From an uncultured Opitutaceae bacterium (GTDB lineage: Bacteria > Verrucomicrobiota > Verrucomicrobiia > Opitutales > Opitutaceae), in assembly GCA_937902925.1 (NCBI GenBank), contig CALFNN010000029.1:1-56381 (forward strand): a stretch of DNA of 56,381 bases, given 5' to 3'. The position numbers and the translations under genes are program-made. The notes below the pieces were generated by a model. The model did not search any database, was not told the DNA's origin, and saw only the letters and a list, made by a program, of their open reading frames with translations. Positions 12,817 to 17,647 of the stretch are shown piece by piece. Each line of letters begins with the position of its first letter. Within the stretch, counting starts at the first letter, position 1.

Positions 12817-14039
12817 ACTGGCACAGCATCGCCACCGTCTACGCCAAGGAGCTGAAGGACCTGTTGCGCGACAAGCGCACCGTGCGCTCGATGATCATCA
12901 TTCCGACGCTGGTGATGCCGGCGCTGACGTTCGGCATCGGCAAGATCGCGGCGGGCGTTTTTTCCAAGGCGCGGGCCGAGACGCCGGTGGTCATGGTGCT
13001 GAGCGACGGCGCGTCGCCGGGTGTCATGGCGCAACTGGAGCAGGACAAGAAACTCCGCCTCGTGCCGGCGCGGGACGACTGGAAGCAGCAGATTTCCGAC
13101 AAGAAGCTCCGCGCCGCGGTGCAGCTCCCCGAGAATTTCGAGGCGGGCCTGAAGGCCGGTGCGGCGCCGGCGGTCACGATCTATCACTACGAGGGCGAGC
13201 TGAAGTCGGGCTTCGCCGTCAATGAACTCGAGGCTTTCTTCCGGGACCTGAGCGCGAGGACGGCACGGGCCCGGCTGGCCGAGCACGGCCTCCCCGAGAC
13301 GCTCGTGCGGCCATTCGAGACGAGGCGTGAAAACGTGGCGGCCCCCGAGAAGGTGGGCGGCAACGCCCTCGGCGGGATCGTGCCCTACATGATCATCATC
13401 CTTTGTTTCATGGGGGCGGTATATCCGGCGCTGGATTTAACGGCGGGGGAAAAGGAGCGCGGGACGATGGAAACGTTGCTGTGCAGCCCGGTCGCACGCG
13501 TGGACATCGTGCTGGGAAAGTTCCTGATGGTTCTCACCAGCTCGCTCGCGGCGATGGTGCTGTCGTTGATCTCGATGAGCGTGAGCGCGGTCGCGGCCGG
13601 TTCGGTGCTGGGCGGGGCGCGCATGGCCGGAGCGGCGCGGGCGGCGGCGGGGGCCGGCGCCCTTCCGACGATCGATCCCGCCGGGGTGCTCGGCGTGCTC
13701 GCGATGGTGCTGCCGGTTGCGGTGCTGTTCTCCGCGGCGATCTTCACCGTCGCGCTCTTTGCCAAGAGCTTCAAGGAGGCGCAGACCTACGTGCAGCCGA
13801 TGGTTTTCATTGTCATCCTGCCCGCGGTCATCGGGATGCTGCCGGGGATCGACCTGAACGCGCGACTCGCGCTCGTGCCCATCCTCAATCTTTCGCTCGT
13901 CTGCAAGGAGATGCTTTCGGGCGTCTGGCACTGGAATTATATCGCGCTGATTTTCGGCTCGACGTGTGTCTATGCGGCGGCGGCGCTCGCGCTCGCGGTG
14001 CGGATGTTCAACCGCGAAGACGTGCTGTTCCGGGTTTGA
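12813..14039 (+). CDS. ABC-2 type permease, NatB-like
   Basis: Membrane subunit of the exporter whose ATPase is encoded immediately upstream (4-bp ATGA overlap). The 408-residue protein starts with the cytosolic KELKDLLRDKRTVRSM motif found in ABC-2 permeases, then a first membrane helix, then a roughly 170-residue external domain. A cluster of five to six membrane helices follows (from IVPYMIIILCFMGAVYP to the C-terminus). The motif AGEKERGTMETLLCSPV after the second helix is characteristic of the NatB/YhaP group. The start is fixed by the overlap with the ATPase gene. Function (ion, peptide or antibiotic export) is open. Confidence 0.92.
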   Translation: MNWHSIATVYAKELKDLLRDKRTVRSMIIIPTLVMPALTFGIGKIAAGVFSKARAETPVVMVLSDGASPGVMAQLEQDKKLRLVPARDDWKQQISDKKLRAAVQLPENFEAGLKAGAAPAVTIYHYEGELKSGFAVNELEAFFRDLSARTARARLAEHGLPETLVRPFETRRENVAAPEKVGGNALGGIVPYMIIILCFMGAVYPALDLTAGEKERGTMETLLCSPVARVDIVLGKFLMVLTSSLAAMVLSLISMSVSAVAAGSVLGGARMAGAARAAAGAGALPTIDPAGVLGVLAMVLPVAVLFSAAIFTVALFAKSFKEAQTYVQPMVFIVILPAVIGMLPGIDLNARLALVPILNLSLVCKEMLSGVWHWNYIALIFGSTCVYAAAALALAVRMFNREDVLFRV

Positions 14040-14191
14040 TCGGCACGATTACACGGGAGTGGGCGTAAAAAATTTCCGAAACCCGGGCGCTCCCGGGTAA
14101 AGCTGGGGTAAAAGCCCCGTCCCCCCGTAGCGCAACGGGTGGGAATTGGTCTATCATGGCGACCGCAGAGCACAGACCATCCCACATCGCC

Positions 14192-14770
14192 ATGAACTCT
14201 CCCATCACCTTTCCGCCCGCGGCGCCCGCGCTCAAACTCACGCGGGCGCCCGCCGAAAAATGGGCCGCCTCGCTCGCCGAGGAGCGCCGCCGCCTGCAAG
14301 AGGACCAGGAAGCGCTGCGCGAACGCGAGGCCAACCTCCGCGACTACGAGGCCCGCTTGCGCGCCCTCCAGATGGAAATCGAAGCGGGCCGCGCCGGCAC
14401 CGTTGCCGCGGTGCGGCCGACGGCCACGCCGTTCGTGCGCCCCTCGAGCAGGGCGCCCTTTGTGGACGACGCCGCCTTGCAGGCCGCGTGGGAAAAACTC
14501 CACCGCGCGCGCGAAATCCTCGAGGCCGAGCAGTCCCACATGCGCGACGAGCGGATCGTCCACCAGGAGCGCGAAACGGTCCTGAAACAGCGCGAGGACG
14601 GCGTGGTCGCCCGTGAGGCCGCCGTCGCCGAGCGTGAGGCGGTGCTGCTGGCCGCCCATGGCGGCGAGCGCGAACCCATTGCATCGGAGCACACGATGTC
14701 GGCCATGACGCGCCTCACCTGCGCGCCATTCAACATCGCCCGCTCCGTTTTTGGCGGGAAGAAGAAATAG
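14192..14770 (+). CDS. coiled-coil protein of unknown function
   Basis: A 192-residue, highly charged protein. Residues about 20-75 and 105-160 are rich in Glu/Arg/Ala heptads (for example EERRRLQEDQEAL and REANLRDYEARLRALQ) and should form two coiled coils, separated by a Pro/Thr/Val linker. The C-terminus ends in a short hydrophobic stretch and GGKKK. No signal peptide and no recognisable domain. I prefer the ATG at 14192; an in-frame ATG at 14156 would add 12 residues. It lies 152 bp after the exporter genes on the same strand, with GC-rich hairpins in between (for example GGGGTAAAAGCCCC near 14104), and is followed by a strong hairpin at 14776-14808. Confidence 0.75.
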   Translation: MNSPITFPPAAPALKLTRAPAEKWAASLAEERRRLQEDQEALREREANLRDYEARLRALQMEIEAGRAGTVAAVRPTATPFVRPSSRAPFVDDAALQAAWEKLHRAREILEAEQSHMRDERIVHQERETVLKQREDGVVAREAAVAEREAVLLAAHGGEREPIASEHTMSAMTRLTCAPFNIARSVFGGKKK

Positions 14771-14775
14771 CGCCA

Positions 14776-14808
14776 CCTCCCGGGCGCCGGTCGCGGCGCC
14801 CGGGGAGG
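14776..14808 (+). terminator. GC-rich hairpin after the coiled-coil gene
   Basis: CCTCCCGGGCGCC (14776-14788) pairs with GGCGCCCGGGGAGG (14795-14808) with one bulged base and a six-base loop, starting five bases after the stop codon. There is no T run after it, so it is a probable transcript-end or 3' stabiliser rather than a textbook intrinsic terminator. Confidence 0.5.
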
Positions 14809-14849
14809 CCGGCGTGAAAAATCCGCTTGCGCCGCGCCCTCGCTTCGCC

Positions 14850-15045
14850 CATCTCATCGCCCGAATGAATTCCATCGCCCAGGTCGTCGCCGTTTCCTCC
14901 GTCAAAATGACGGATGCCAAACGCGCACGCTGGCACGGGTCGGCTTGGCGACGATGGTCACGCGCTAAATGAAGCGCCCGCGGCTGCAACAGGCCGCCGA
15001 CTCCACCGCCAAGCCCGACTCAACCGAGTCGGGCTTTTTGTTTTT
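14850..15045 (+). ncRNA. candidate structured leader or small RNA ending in an intrinsic terminator
   Basis: The stretch 14771-15078 has no convincing gene. From about 14890 it holds a run of hairpins: TCCGTCA-AAA-TGACGGA (14898-14914), GCGCT-AAATGA-AGCGC (14962-14977), GCGGC/GCCGC (14980-14997) and a clear intrinsic terminator at 15011-15045. The segment CCGACTC occurs twice (14997-15003 and 15015-15021) and both copies can pair with GAGTCGG at 15026-15032, so two mutually exclusive folds are possible. That is the layout of an attenuator for the methyltransferase gene whose ATG is at 15079. A 35-codon ORF (14865-14972) overlaps it but has no visible ribosome binding site. I found no match to a riboswitch consensus that I know. 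Confidence 0.4.
15011..15045 (+). terminator. intrinsic (Rho-independent) terminator
   Basis: Perfect 11-bp stem AAGCCCGACTC / GAGTCGGGCTT with an AACC loop (15011-15036), followed by TTTG and TTTTT up to 15045. It is oriented for plus-strand transcription, 34 bp before the methyltransferase start. It either ends the transcript of the coiled-coil gene or acts as an attenuator for the methyltransferase gene. Confidence 0.85.
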
Positions 15046-15078
15046 CCCCGCACCTCCGTCCCAGACCCACTGCTCCCC

Positions 15079-15852
15079 ATGCCAACGCTCACTGCTCCTC
15101 CTCCGCCCGCCGCGCTCGCGCGGCGGTTACCACCGCTTCCGCCTGCGCTCGACCTGCCCGCCGTTTCGTTCTTCGGCCGCTCGCTGGCCGAATACACGCA
15201 GTTCTTCGCGCTCGACGTTGCCGCCCTGCGCAGTCGCGACGTGCTCGACGTCGCCGCCGGTCCCTCGTCCTTCGTCGCCGAGGCGTGCCGCCGCGGAGTC
15301 GCGGCCGTCGCCGTCGACCCGCTCTATGGCGACACCGTCGCCGCCCTCGCCGCGCGCGTGCAGGGCGACTACGATCACATGTTCGCCCAGATGCGTGCCA
15401 AGCGGCGGCTGTTCAAGGTGGGGCTTCGTTTGCCCGCGTTCTTTCCGTCGATCGACGCGGCCGAGGCCGACCGGCGGGCCGCGGCGCAGCGTTTCCTCGC
15501 CGACTACGAGGCGCAGCGACTCTATGGGCGCTACGTCGGGGCGGTGCTGCCGCGGCTGCCGTTTTTCGACGGGACGTTCGACCTGGTGCTGTGCGCGCAC
15601 CTGTTGTTCACCTACGCGCAGCGCTTCGACTTCGACTGGCATCTCGCCGCCTGTCGCGAACTCGTCCGGGTGAGCGCCGGCGAGGTGCGGCTGCACCCGG
15701 TGTGCGGGGTCGACGGCAAGCCCTACGCCGCGCTGGCGCGGCTGCGGCGCGAACTGCGCGAAGCCGGCATTGCGAGCGAACTCGTCCGCGTGAACTACGA
15801 GTTTTTCGTCGGCAGCGACTCGATGCTGGTCTTGAAGAAGGCCGTGTCATGA
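15079..15852 (+). CDS. class I SAM-dependent methyltransferase
   Basis: A 257-residue soluble protein. The glycine-rich SAM motif I appears as DVLDVAAGPSSFVAEA (about residues 53-68), followed by the acidic end of strand 2 in VAAVAVDPLYGD. A later FDLVLCAHLLFTYA (motif IV/post-II region) also fits class I methyltransferases of the 'methylase of unknown specificity' kind. The start is the ATG at 15079; the longer frame runs back through the terminator and is not coding. It overlaps the following ABM-domain gene by 4 bp (ATGA), so they are co-translated. Substrate unknown. The upstream hairpin array and terminator suggest regulation in the leader. Confidence 0.85.
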   Translation: MPTLTAPPPPAALARRLPPLPPALDLPAVSFFGRSLAEYTQFFALDVAALRSRDVLDVAAGPSSFVAEACRRGVAAVAVDPLYGDTVAALAARVQGDYDHMFAQMRAKRRLFKVGLRLPAFFPSIDAAEADRRAAAQRFLADYEAQRLYGRYVGAVLPRLPFFDGTFDLVLCAHLLFTYAQRFDFDWHLAACRELVRVSAGEVRLHPVCGVDGKPYAALARLRRELREAGIASELVRVNYEFFVGSDSMLVLKKAVS

Positions 15853-16184
15853 GCGCCTCCCCCGGCATCGCCCGCACGCCCGAGCCGCCATATTACGCGG
15901 TGATCTTCACCGCGCGGCGAACCGAGGGTGATCATGGTTACACCGCGATGGCCGCGCGGATGGAGGCGCTCGGAGCGACGTATCCGGGGTTCCTCGGAAT
16001 CGAGAGCGCGCGGGGGGCCGACGGCATCGGCATCACCGTGAGCTACTGGCGCGACGAGGCGTCGATCGCGGCGTGGAAGCGTGACACCGAGCACGAGCGA
16101 GCCCAGCGCGGCGGCCGGGAGACATGGTATGCCGACTACCAGGTGCGCATCGCGAAGGTCGAACGCGCCTACGGGAAGCCGTGA
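15849..16184 (+). CDS. antibiotic biosynthesis monooxygenase (ABM) domain protein
   Basis: A 111-residue protein with the dimeric alpha/beta-barrel pattern of ABM proteins: strand YYAVIFTARR, helix YTAMAARMEALG, YPGFLGIESARG, strand IGITVSYWRDEASIAAWK and the following TEHERAQRGGRETWY, which is very close to the YhgC/HmoB-like stress-response subgroup. The start is the ATG at 15849 within the stop of the methyltransferase gene. Family members include heme-degrading or quinol monooxygenases, but many have no known reaction. Context with a methyltransferase gives no clear pathway. Confidence 0.87.
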   Translation: MSASPGIARTPEPPYYAVIFTARRTEGDHGYTAMAARMEALGATYPGFLGIESARGADGIGITVSYWRDEASIAAWKRDTEHERAQRGGRETWYADYQVRIAKVERAYGKP

Positions 16185-16188
16185 CCAT

Positions 16189-16268
16189 TTGTCCTCCATT
16201 GGTTGATGAATTCCTCGTGACTCCTCCGGCCGGAGGAAACCGGTTGTCAACTAATGGTTGACAACCGG
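16189..16268. promoter_or_regulatory. palindrome cluster upstream of thymidine phosphorylase
   Basis: A perfect 12-bp-arm palindrome occupies 16240-16268: CCGGTTGTCAAC, centre TAATG, GTTGACAACCGG. Its 19-bp core TGTCAACTAATGGTTGACA (16245-16263) belongs to the TGTmams-TAWTR-skTKACA family also seen at 19646, 37641 and 43042. Immediately upstream is a perfect 16-bp palindrome TCCTCCGGCCGGAGGA (16222-16237), and a degenerate copy of the right half (ATTGGTTGAT) lies at 16198-16207. The palindrome centre is 77 bp before the deoA ATG, a suitable place for an operator. It is also 56 bp after the ABM stop codon, so a 3' hairpin role is possible. Confidence 0.6.
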
Positions 16269-16330
16269 CCGTGGCGGAGCGGGGCGATTGTGACGTTGCC
16301 CGGGAGCGTTTCGCACGGTTGAGTGCCGGC

Positions 16331-17647
16331 ATGAGCAGCGCGCTTTTCCCGCAGCACGTCATCGCCCGTAAACGCGACGGCCGTTCGCTCACCCGCGACG
16401 AGATTGCGGCGTTCGTCCGCGGGGCGACCGACGGTTCGTGGGCCGACTACCAGCTCAGCGCGATGCTCATGACGATTTTTCTGCGCGGCATGGACACGCC
16501 GGAGACGGCGGCGCTGACCGAGGCGATGATGCGGTCGGGCTTCGTGGCCGACCTCTCGAATGTCGCGCCGCCCCGGGCCGACAAGCATTCGACGGGCGGC
16601 GTGGGCGACAAGGTTTCGCTGCATCTCGCGCCGATGGTCGCGGCCTGCGGCGTCGCCGTGCCGATGATCTCGGGGCGCGGCCTCGGGCACACCGGCGGCA
16701 CGCTCGACAAGCTCGAGTCGATCCCGGGCTTTTGCGTCAACCTGACGTTTGCGGAATACCGCACACAGCTCGAAAAGATCCGGCTCGCGCTCATCGGCCA
16801 GACGGCGGAGCTGGCGCCGGCGGACAAGAAACTCTACGCGTTGCGCGATGTGACAGGAACGGTCGAGAGCATCCCGCTGATCTGCGCGAGCATCCTGGCG
16901 AAAAAACTGGCGGAGGGCACGCAGGTGCTGGTGGGCGACGTGAAGTTTGGCCGCGGAGCGTTCATGAAGGACAAGGCGAAGGCGCGCGAACTCGCACAGA
17001 CGCTCGTGTCGGTCGCCAATGCGATGGGCACGCCGATGCGCGCCGTGTTGACGGCGATGGACGAGCCGCTCGGCCGTGCGGTCGGCAACGCGCTCGAGGT
17101 CGCCGAGTCGATCGACTGCCTGAAAGGCCGCGGTCCCGCCGACACGATGGAAGTCACCTTTGCGCTCGGCGAACAGATGCTACTGCTGTCGAAGGTCGCG
17201 GCGACGAAGGAAGAGGCGCGGCGGAAACTCGAAGCGAGCGTCGCGAGCGGCGCGGCGCTGCAAAAATTCCGTGAGTTGGTCGCCGCGCAGGGCGGGGACG
17301 TGCGCGTGATCGACGATCCGACGCGGCTGCCGCAGGCGAGGCTCAAAGCGGCCGTGGCCGCGCCGCGGGCCGGCTTCGTGGAGGACGTCGACGCGATGGG
17401 CGTGGCACTGGCCGCACTGCGGCTCGGCGCAGGCCGGGCGAAAGCCGAGGACAAGATCGATCACGCCGTTGGCATCGGCGCACTCGTCAAAATCGGCGAG
17501 CGCGTCGAGAACGGCGCTGCGTTGTGCGTGATTCACGCGAGTAACGAGGAGGCGCTGGCCGAGGCAAAAAGAATGCTGACGAAAGCAGTTGTGCTCGGGG
17601 AGACGTCCGTCGCCACGCCGATGCTAATCGACGAGATTGTCGGGTGA
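16331..17647 (+). CDS. deoA: thymidine phosphorylase / pyrimidine-nucleoside phosphorylase
   Basis: Splits (deoxy)thymidine or uridine with phosphate to give the base and (deoxy)ribose 1-phosphate in the cytoplasm. The 438-residue length and full domain order match the family: N-terminal helical domain (RDGRSLTRDEIAAFVRG), phosphate-binding DKHSTGGVGDKVSLHLAP, the family signature SGRGLGHTGGTLDKLES (about residue 113), and the C-terminal PYNP domain with an ARLKAAVAAPRAGFV strand and a lipoyl-like HAVGIGALVKIGERVENG hammerhead. The start is the ATG at 16331. The name deoA is used for the family; the true substrate range (thymidine only, or all pyrimidine nucleosides as for pdp) cannot be read from sequence. 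The palindrome cluster upstream probably controls it. Confidence 0.93.
   Translation: MSSALFPQHVIARKRDGRSLTRDEIAAFVRGATDGSWADYQLSAMLMTIFLRGMDTPETAALTEAMMRSGFVADLSNVAPPRADKHSTGGVGDKVSLHLAPMVAACGVAVPMISGRGLGHTGGTLDKLESIPGFCVNLTFAEYRTQLEKIRLALIGQTAELAPADKKLYALRDVTGTVESIPLICASILAKKLAEGTQVLVGDVKFGRGAFMKDKAKARELAQTLVSVANAMGTPMRAVLTAMDEPLGRAVGNALEVAESIDCLKGRGPADTMEVTFALGEQMLLLSKVAATKEEARRKLEASVASGAALQKFRELVAAQGGDVRVIDDPTRLPQARLKAAVAAPRAGFVEDVDAMGVALAALRLGAGRAKAEDKIDHAVGIGALVKIGERVENGAALCVIHASNEEALAEAKRMLTKAVVLGETSVATPMLIDEIVG

Follow-up and report, generated by a model that had tools for sequence, protein, structure and literature searches.

The window analysed in this study, the whole stretch of 56,381 nucleotides taken from the 6.0 Mb genome of an uncultured Opitutaceae bacterium, contains a gene for a class I SAM-dependent methyltransferase of 257 amino acids (15079-15852), assigned from Pfam and from the predicted structure of the protein. 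Directly in front of this gene, and on the forward strand, as are the promoter, leader, switch and ABM-gene features described below, lie a short open reading frame with three tryptophan codons (14865-14972) and an intrinsic terminator (15011-15045). The stop codon of the methyltransferase gene overlaps, as ATGA, the start of a gene encoding a protein with an antibiotic biosynthesis monooxygenase (ABM) domain (15849-16184; Pfam PF03992, E 1.2e-06), with which it is probably co-transcribed. Gene neighbourhoods varied among the 13 loci listed: a coiled-coil protein gene upstream and the ABM and thymidine phosphorylase genes downstream were found in many of them, not in all. The coiled-coil gene of the window occupies positions 14156-14770; many relatives have it in the same place, upstream of the leader, the matching protein being longer at two loci (L013 and L015). 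It is followed by a G+C-rich perfect 11-bp hairpin that has no T run (14779-14804); short matches to this segment occur at many places in the genome, and it is perhaps a repeated extragenic palindrome.

When the methyltransferase was compared with Pfam, Methyltransf_11 scored just above its cut-off and Methyltransf_25 just below it, together with one weak unrelated match, and nothing in NCBIfam exceeded the cut-off; no Erm model of either collection matched the protein, which gives no ground for placing it in the Erm family. An AlphaFold model computed from 46 sequences showed a class I methyltransferase fold with a pLDDT of 91.2, a first model from 8 sequences (pLDDT 56.5) having been discarded. 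Among the best 50 matches listed by the fold search (Z 10.9-12.2) were many class I methyltransferases with tied scores, some of them natural-product methyltransferases, and these ties pointed to no substrate, while a PDB sequence search with the methyltransferase returned weak PRMT6 matches only.

The 196-nt segment that ends with the terminator (14850-15045) is strongly structured, with a folding energy of -82.5 kcal/mol against -65.8 (sd 4.35) after shuffling (z = -3.83), a value that 0 of 200 shuffles equalled. The terminator, which the initial annotation of this DNA had described as a perfect 11-bp one, consists of a perfect 11-bp stem (15011-15021/15026-15036), a 4-nt loop and a T-rich tail that runs to 15045, and the two copies of CCGACTC (14997-15003 and 15015-15021) and the GAGTCGG at 15026-15032 were also found where that annotation had placed them. 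Its distance of 34 bp before the ATG agrees with the 33 bases that lie between the end of the tail and the methyltransferase ATG at 15079. Four terminator-like sites were counted in 14000-16400, against 1.8 (sd 1.5) in shuffled sequences, and the one at 15011-15036 has the longest stem.

None of the 4227 Rfam families scanned over the window reached its gathering score, in keeping with the earlier statement that no known riboswitch could be recognised. A local search by E-value gave nine sub-threshold matches, the best being Yfr1 (22.5 bits against a cut-off of 38), and SAM/SAH riboswitch families were absent from these nine; the Trp_leader family (RF00513) scored 15.6 bits against a cut-off of 41 (E 2.1), below the level of family membership. 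A riboswitch responding to SAM or another ligand would suit the SAM dependence of the target enzyme, but with no family at cut-off and no conserved aptamer-like core seen among the leaders we regard this explanation as extremely improbable.

Homologous loci were obtained in two ways. Searching with the DNA of the element in 57 genomes (its own and 56 others) returned seven clear homologues in other genera (L009-L015; 71-84% identity), 7 of 7 preceding the same methyltransferase gene; an eighth match with E < 1e-5 (L016, 44 nt), at which the neighbouring genes were all absent, was set aside. Besides, loci were gathered by the methyltransferase gene, so that its presence at all of them is by construction: 54 came from named records (40 of these, L038-L077, forming the close set), to which matches in 85 of 252 family genomes were added, and 125 loci were reduced to 85 distinct ones by treating as duplicates those that agree exactly over 150 nt of the gene. 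The named relatives are mostly Opitutaceae/Opitutae, many of them metagenome-assembled.

A short open reading frame with at least one Trp codon was recognised upstream of the methyltransferase in 79 of the 85 distinct loci. The six loci at which no leader was recognised (L077, L169, L170, L171, L172 and L176) were set aside; L169 lies at the edge of its contig, and the matches at L077 and L176 cover part of the gene only. The leader of the window (MNSIAQVVAVSSVKMTDAKRARWHGSAWRRWSRAK*; 14865-14972) starts with ATG and comprises 35 codons plus the stop, with Trp codons at 14931-14933 (W1, the proposed regulatory codon), 14946-14948 and 14955-14957; several homologous leaders begin with GTG instead. 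Counted from W1 itself to the stop, 69 of the 79 leaders have at least two Trp codons, a WW tandem is present in 36 of the 79, and diverged members have leader peptides of the same kind (...GYGWWRPARRW in Geminisphaera, L071; ...GAWWRCSKVWRWRS in L156; ...AAWWWQFKVRRWRS in L155). W1 was picked with a score that rewards Trp, and its presence in 79 of 79 leaders is therefore by construction (in L102, where the script had chosen the wrong frame, it was placed by hand). This does not apply to the start codons, since an in-frame ATG, GTG or TTG precedes the first Trp by 19-25 codons in 73 of 79 leaders, compared with 17 of 158 cases for the two remaining frames, nor to the blind promoter test.

The leader is preceded by a promoter-like box (14827-14855), putative and proposed on the strength of its conservation, which is made up of a putative -35 box TTGCGC (14827-14832) and, 17 nt after it, a putative -10 box CATCTC (14850-14855) that ends 9 nt 5' of the leader ATG; the letters CTTGC at 14826-14830 are invariant in an 8-row alignment. 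The box departs from the E. coli consensus, and a promoter scan based on that consensus did not call it. In the blind test, TTGC-N17-[CT]AT was searched for in the 85 upstream regions and an ATG or GTG was required 4-13 nt further on. Both were found at 45 loci, and all 45 of the reading frames defined in this way were at most 60 codons long and contained Trp, which accounted for 6.2% of their residues and appeared first at codon index 21-24 in 44 of them. The -10-like box ended 5-11 nt before the start codon in the 45 loci and 7-9 nt before it in 41, a spacing from which the 5' end of the mRNA is predicted to lie at or very near the leader start codon, making the transcript near-leaderless. 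On sequence evidence, this conserved box upstream of the hairpins and the covariation described below speak against both grounds on which, according to the initial annotation, the terminator would only end the preceding gene: no covariation in homologues, or a transcript start downstream of 15045.

Purifying selection was not seen on the 12 codons that precede the first Trp, where pN/pS was 0.92 in the leader frame against 1.01 and 0.75 in the other two, and in this comparison the leader frame was without the codon-substitution signature of translation, so that codon substitutions give no positive evidence that the leader is translated. Selection on the leader as a peptide was rejected on the same value. 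The absence of N-terminal selection agrees with an attenuator leader, where nothing but the regulatory codons counts, and is an argument against a peptide that has a function of its own or arrests the ribosome; arrest peptides depend on their own sequence. This bears on the proposal that the leader peptide, working through the same antiterminator, senses something other than Trp supply, either free Trp as an arrest peptide like TnaC or a translation inhibitor as in erm genes. Leader reading frames in front of methyltransferases are classic in erm genes (PMC5118997, PMC6851288), and Arg and Lys are common around the leader Trp codons. The erm leaders resemble the proposed system of the window in that a leader reading frame attenuates a methyltransferase gene; their signal is a macrolide, whereas what stays constant among the Opitutaceae leaders is a Trp codon and the spacing between it and the antiterminator, and the enzyme is without a match to the Erm models of Pfam and NCBIfam. 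We therefore consider the sensing of another signal improbable, and a response to Trp supply the better reading of the leader.

The terminator arm has an alternative partner within the leader reading frame, which was identified by inverted-repeat search and covariation. The 5' strand of this antiterminator (region 2, GGCTTGGCG, 14942-14950) contains the second Trp codon and, in the window, has its first base 11 nt downstream of that of W1, and its 3' strand (region 3, CGCCAAGCC, 15007-15015) overlaps the first five bases of the terminator stem (15011-15015). At the DNA level the two segments (GGCUUGGCG and CGCCAAGCC) are a perfect 9-nt inverted repeat, which, like the in-frame Trp leader at 14865-14972, goes beyond the features of the initial annotation. 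An upstream GGGUCGG alone was also considered as the partner of the terminator arm; not every leader preserves that pairing, and the 9-bp core was adopted instead.

Several comparisons support this pairing. A 9-bp frame anchored on the terminator arm and on the codons of the leader was paired in 597 of 675 cells in 75 of the 79 leaders (L062, L063, L065 and L161 being out), and sliding one side by 1-3 bases left 20-51% paired. The 40 distinct combinations gave a paired fraction of 0.822, against 0.771 (sd 0.010) after re-dealing the partners, with 0.814 as the best of 2000 re-deals. Free duplex energy, computed for 74 of the 79 leaders, was better than that of shuffled partners (z < -1.64) in 60 and better with the leader's own partner than with those of other loci on average in 62. 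Seven loci fitted the fixed frame poorly, with 2-5 of 9 pairs (L047, L057, L064, L068, L131, L147 and L148), and a free search found another duplex for most of them. Diverged leaders with other terminator sequences retain the pairing as GGUUUGGCG/CGCCAAACC and similar, and the most diverged ones preserve the Trp codons, the 2:3 pairing and a terminator, with little other sequence.

Covariation, which the initial annotation had suggested looking for among homologous leaders, was indeed seen in the antiterminator. It was assessed in an alignment of 39 leaders drawn from 67 usable ones and selected for the GCCCGACT-type terminator; L040, L046 and L114, for which the terminator call was too long, were excluded from this selection and from the linker analysis below. 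The antiterminator was paired in 93.4% of cells, and two-sided changes numbered 22 compared with 7.6 in shuffles (0 of 500 as high; 0-2 in slid versions), although these cells are not independent events, because related sequences share changes that are thus counted repeatedly. One pair was C-G in 22 and U-A in 17 of the 39 leaders with zero exceptions; the outer two pairs failed in 11 and 9 of the 39 rows, and further pair types numbered 3, under the 5.4 of the shuffles. A hairpin internal to the leader reading frame (CCGTC-AAAAT-GACGG, 14899-14913) had two-sided changes at 5 of 5 pairs in the same alignment, with 89.7% of cells paired.

The terminator stem was paired in 99.8% of cells of these 39 leaders, and 7 of its 11 pairs were invariant. 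Across the whole set a terminator was called by script in 77 of the 79 leaders, at least two of these calls (L047 and L064) being wrong and none having been made for L065 and L161. The stem at 15011-15036 is nearly identical in sequence across genera, which is unusual for an intrinsic terminator; such near-invariance is to be expected if the attenuation model is right, because the 5' arm must then pair with two partners.

The general proposal of the initial annotation, an attenuator that chooses between terminator and antiterminator in front of the methyltransferase, is thus upheld, but not the switch that it had drawn, in which the first CCGACTC overlaps a GCGGC/GCCGC hairpin whose folding would decide the outcome. 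In the linker analysis, which covered 72 of the 79 leaders, a second copy of the arm core was present in one, that of the window, and the linker formed some hairpin in 36. A classical 1:2 hairpin, of the pause or protector kind that competes with the 2:3 pairing, was also considered; the own partner of the candidate beat those of other loci in 40 of 74 leaders, a comparison that gives it no clear support.

The element is closely tied to one gene. A covariance model trained on the 39 leaders and run on the 252 family genomes gave 60 matches at E<=1e-6, all 60 of them immediately upstream of the methyltransferase; at E<=0.01, 64 of 83 matches preceded the gene, ending 12-196 nt from its aligned start, and in 21 of the 85 methyltransferase-bearing genomes the model found no match of this kind. 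The other 19 of the 83 matches lie elsewhere, and none of the nine strongest of these, which were inspected, resembles a Trp leader. One weak match (L192, G235:C187, approximately 517-679), unrelated in sequence, shows a terminator preceded by a reading frame that carries two Trp codons, in a genome that gave no methyltransferase match at E<=1e-20. The terminator sequence pattern was found once each in 7 of 38 genomes, always at the methyltransferase, and zero times in the other 31. No such leader was seen among the upstream reading frames with at least two Trp codons at the 14 outgroup methyltransferase loci (L078-L091; for L087, 257 nt of upstream sequence were available), nor was a leader of this pattern found upstream of the main trpE of the window genome, where there is one 40-codon reading frame with two scattered Trp; besides this trpE the genome has a weaker trpE-like match.

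The same data bear on whether the segment could be a stand-alone sRNA, made from a promoter of its own and ended by its own terminator, or else a leader RNA or peptide that acts in trans like rnTrpL/peTrpL of Sinorhizobium, in both cases without cis control. A promoter-like box and a terminator of its own would suit such an RNA, and the predicted transcript would begin much as S. meliloti rnTrpL does (PMC7298713), at the start codon or close to it. Against this stand the 60 of 60 strong covariance matches directly before one gene, the 33 nt between tail and ATG in the window, within which a second promoter would need to yield a leaderless mRNA, and a covarying antiterminator for which a plain sRNA has no obvious use. 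Control of the adjacent methyltransferase gene in cis is therefore our preferred reading, and an RNA with no such role seems rather less probable even than the sensing of another signal by the leader peptide.

That this site attenuates the methyltransferase gene is very probable, and comparative sequence data give good reason to believe that it does so at the level of transcription, through the ribosome and in the manner of the trp operon. Features by which amino-acid attenuators are recognised have their counterparts in the sequence, namely a Trp-codon reading frame, an intrinsic terminator and a putative antiterminator that shares the 5' strand of the terminator. Because the terminator arm has its conserved second partner inside the Trp-codon leader, the sensor is most likely the translating ribosome and not a ligand such as SAM. 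That the methyltransferase has no known link to Trp counts against the model, as does the failure to see a leader of this pattern at the main trpE.

For this attenuator we infer translation of the leader, stalling, Trp as the signal, a kinetic choice of structure and the start site. Transcription would begin at about the leader start codon, as the conserved promoter-like box suggests, and a ribosome would trail the RNA polymerase into the 35-codon leader. With plentiful charged tRNA-Trp, the ribosome would reach the leader stop codon and block pairing of 14942-14950, whereupon the terminator (15011-15036) could form and transcription would stop about 35-40 nt before the methyltransferase gene. 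When charged tRNA-Trp is scarce, the ribosome would wait with the first Trp codon (14931) in the A site and leave 14942-14950 largely free to pair with 15007-15015 before the 3' arm of the terminator exists, which would allow read-through.

Folding of the window RNA was examined with an assumed reach of the ribosome over downstream RNA. What a ribosome at the stop codon leaves uncovered folded into the terminator; with the ribosome at W1 and RNA made only as far as the 5' arm, the antiterminator formed; with the ribosome at W1 and the whole terminator made, the terminator stem won. Over all leaders compared, even when a ribosome occupied W1, the minimum-energy fold at equilibrium included the antiterminator in 19 of 74, and the model therefore needs a kinetic choice. 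The choice in E. coli trp attenuation is likewise regarded as kinetic.

Enterobacterial trp attenuation, whose leaders carry a WWR motif, offers a close likeness: trpL (RF00513) also has a Trp-codon leader reading frame, a terminator before the gene and a competing fold that takes up the 5' side of the terminator, and WWR is found in many Opitutaceae leaders. The two differ in that a methyltransferase is predicted to be controlled here instead of trpE, that the antiterminator strand itself contains Trp codons, and that comparison does not clearly support the 1:2 hairpin. Chlamydia, which belongs to the same superphylum as Verrucomicrobiota, offers a further comparison. There the protein YtgR attenuates trpRBA in a Trp-dependent manner (PMC7755916), while a leader reading frame and an RNA switch before a methyltransferase gene are proposed here. 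The S. meliloti trpL/rnTrpL/peTrpL system has a Trp leader peptide and an RNA that begins at the ATG of the leader reading frame, a start that is predicted at or near the same point in Opitutaceae; it controls trpE(G) and belongs to another phylum (PMC7298713).

A survey of 2010 stated that leader-peptide systems were then known only in Proteobacteria and Actinobacteria, to which it added its own case in Firmicutes (PMC2965389), and a leucine-rich attenuator peptide was later described in Staphylococcus (PMC5794164). Within the open-licence literature, outside which most subscription journals fall, no paper was found that joins Verrucomicrobia, leader peptide and transcription attenuation. What would be new is the phylum, the methyltransferase target and the near-leaderless start predicted in such a setting; the parts appear to be those of a trp-type attenuator. 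The finding would extend leader-peptide attenuation by amino acids to Verrucomicrobiota, and Trp supply would be a concrete physiological clue to an uncharacterised methyltransferase.

The composition of the proteins was also considered in this regard. Leader-bearing methyltransferases contained 0.88 Trp per 249 aa (33 proteins), compared with 2.15 per 248 in the outgroup without leader (13 proteins), a difference with p = 0.002 in a Mann-Whitney test that ignores relatedness; a Trp-poor enzyme fits a protein that is made when Trp is short. The ABM protein, with 3 Trp in 111 residues, does not fit production under Trp shortage. As a tentative proposal, in which we have less trust than doubt, Opitutaceae may run a methyltransferase-based response to starvation for Trp or tryptophanyl-tRNA, in which a near-leaderless trp-type attenuator detached from Trp synthesis has been kept family-wide for one enzyme and the terminated leader RNA or its peptide may also act in trans. 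If true, such a response could be aimed, for instance, at competitors or hosts that use up Trp or block tryptophanyl-tRNA synthetase.

Downstream of the ABM gene, a perfect 12-bp inverted repeat (CCGGTTGTCAAC-TAATG-GTTGACAACCGG; 16240-16268) lies shortly 5' of the thymidine phosphorylase gene (ATG at 16331) and could be a repressor operator.
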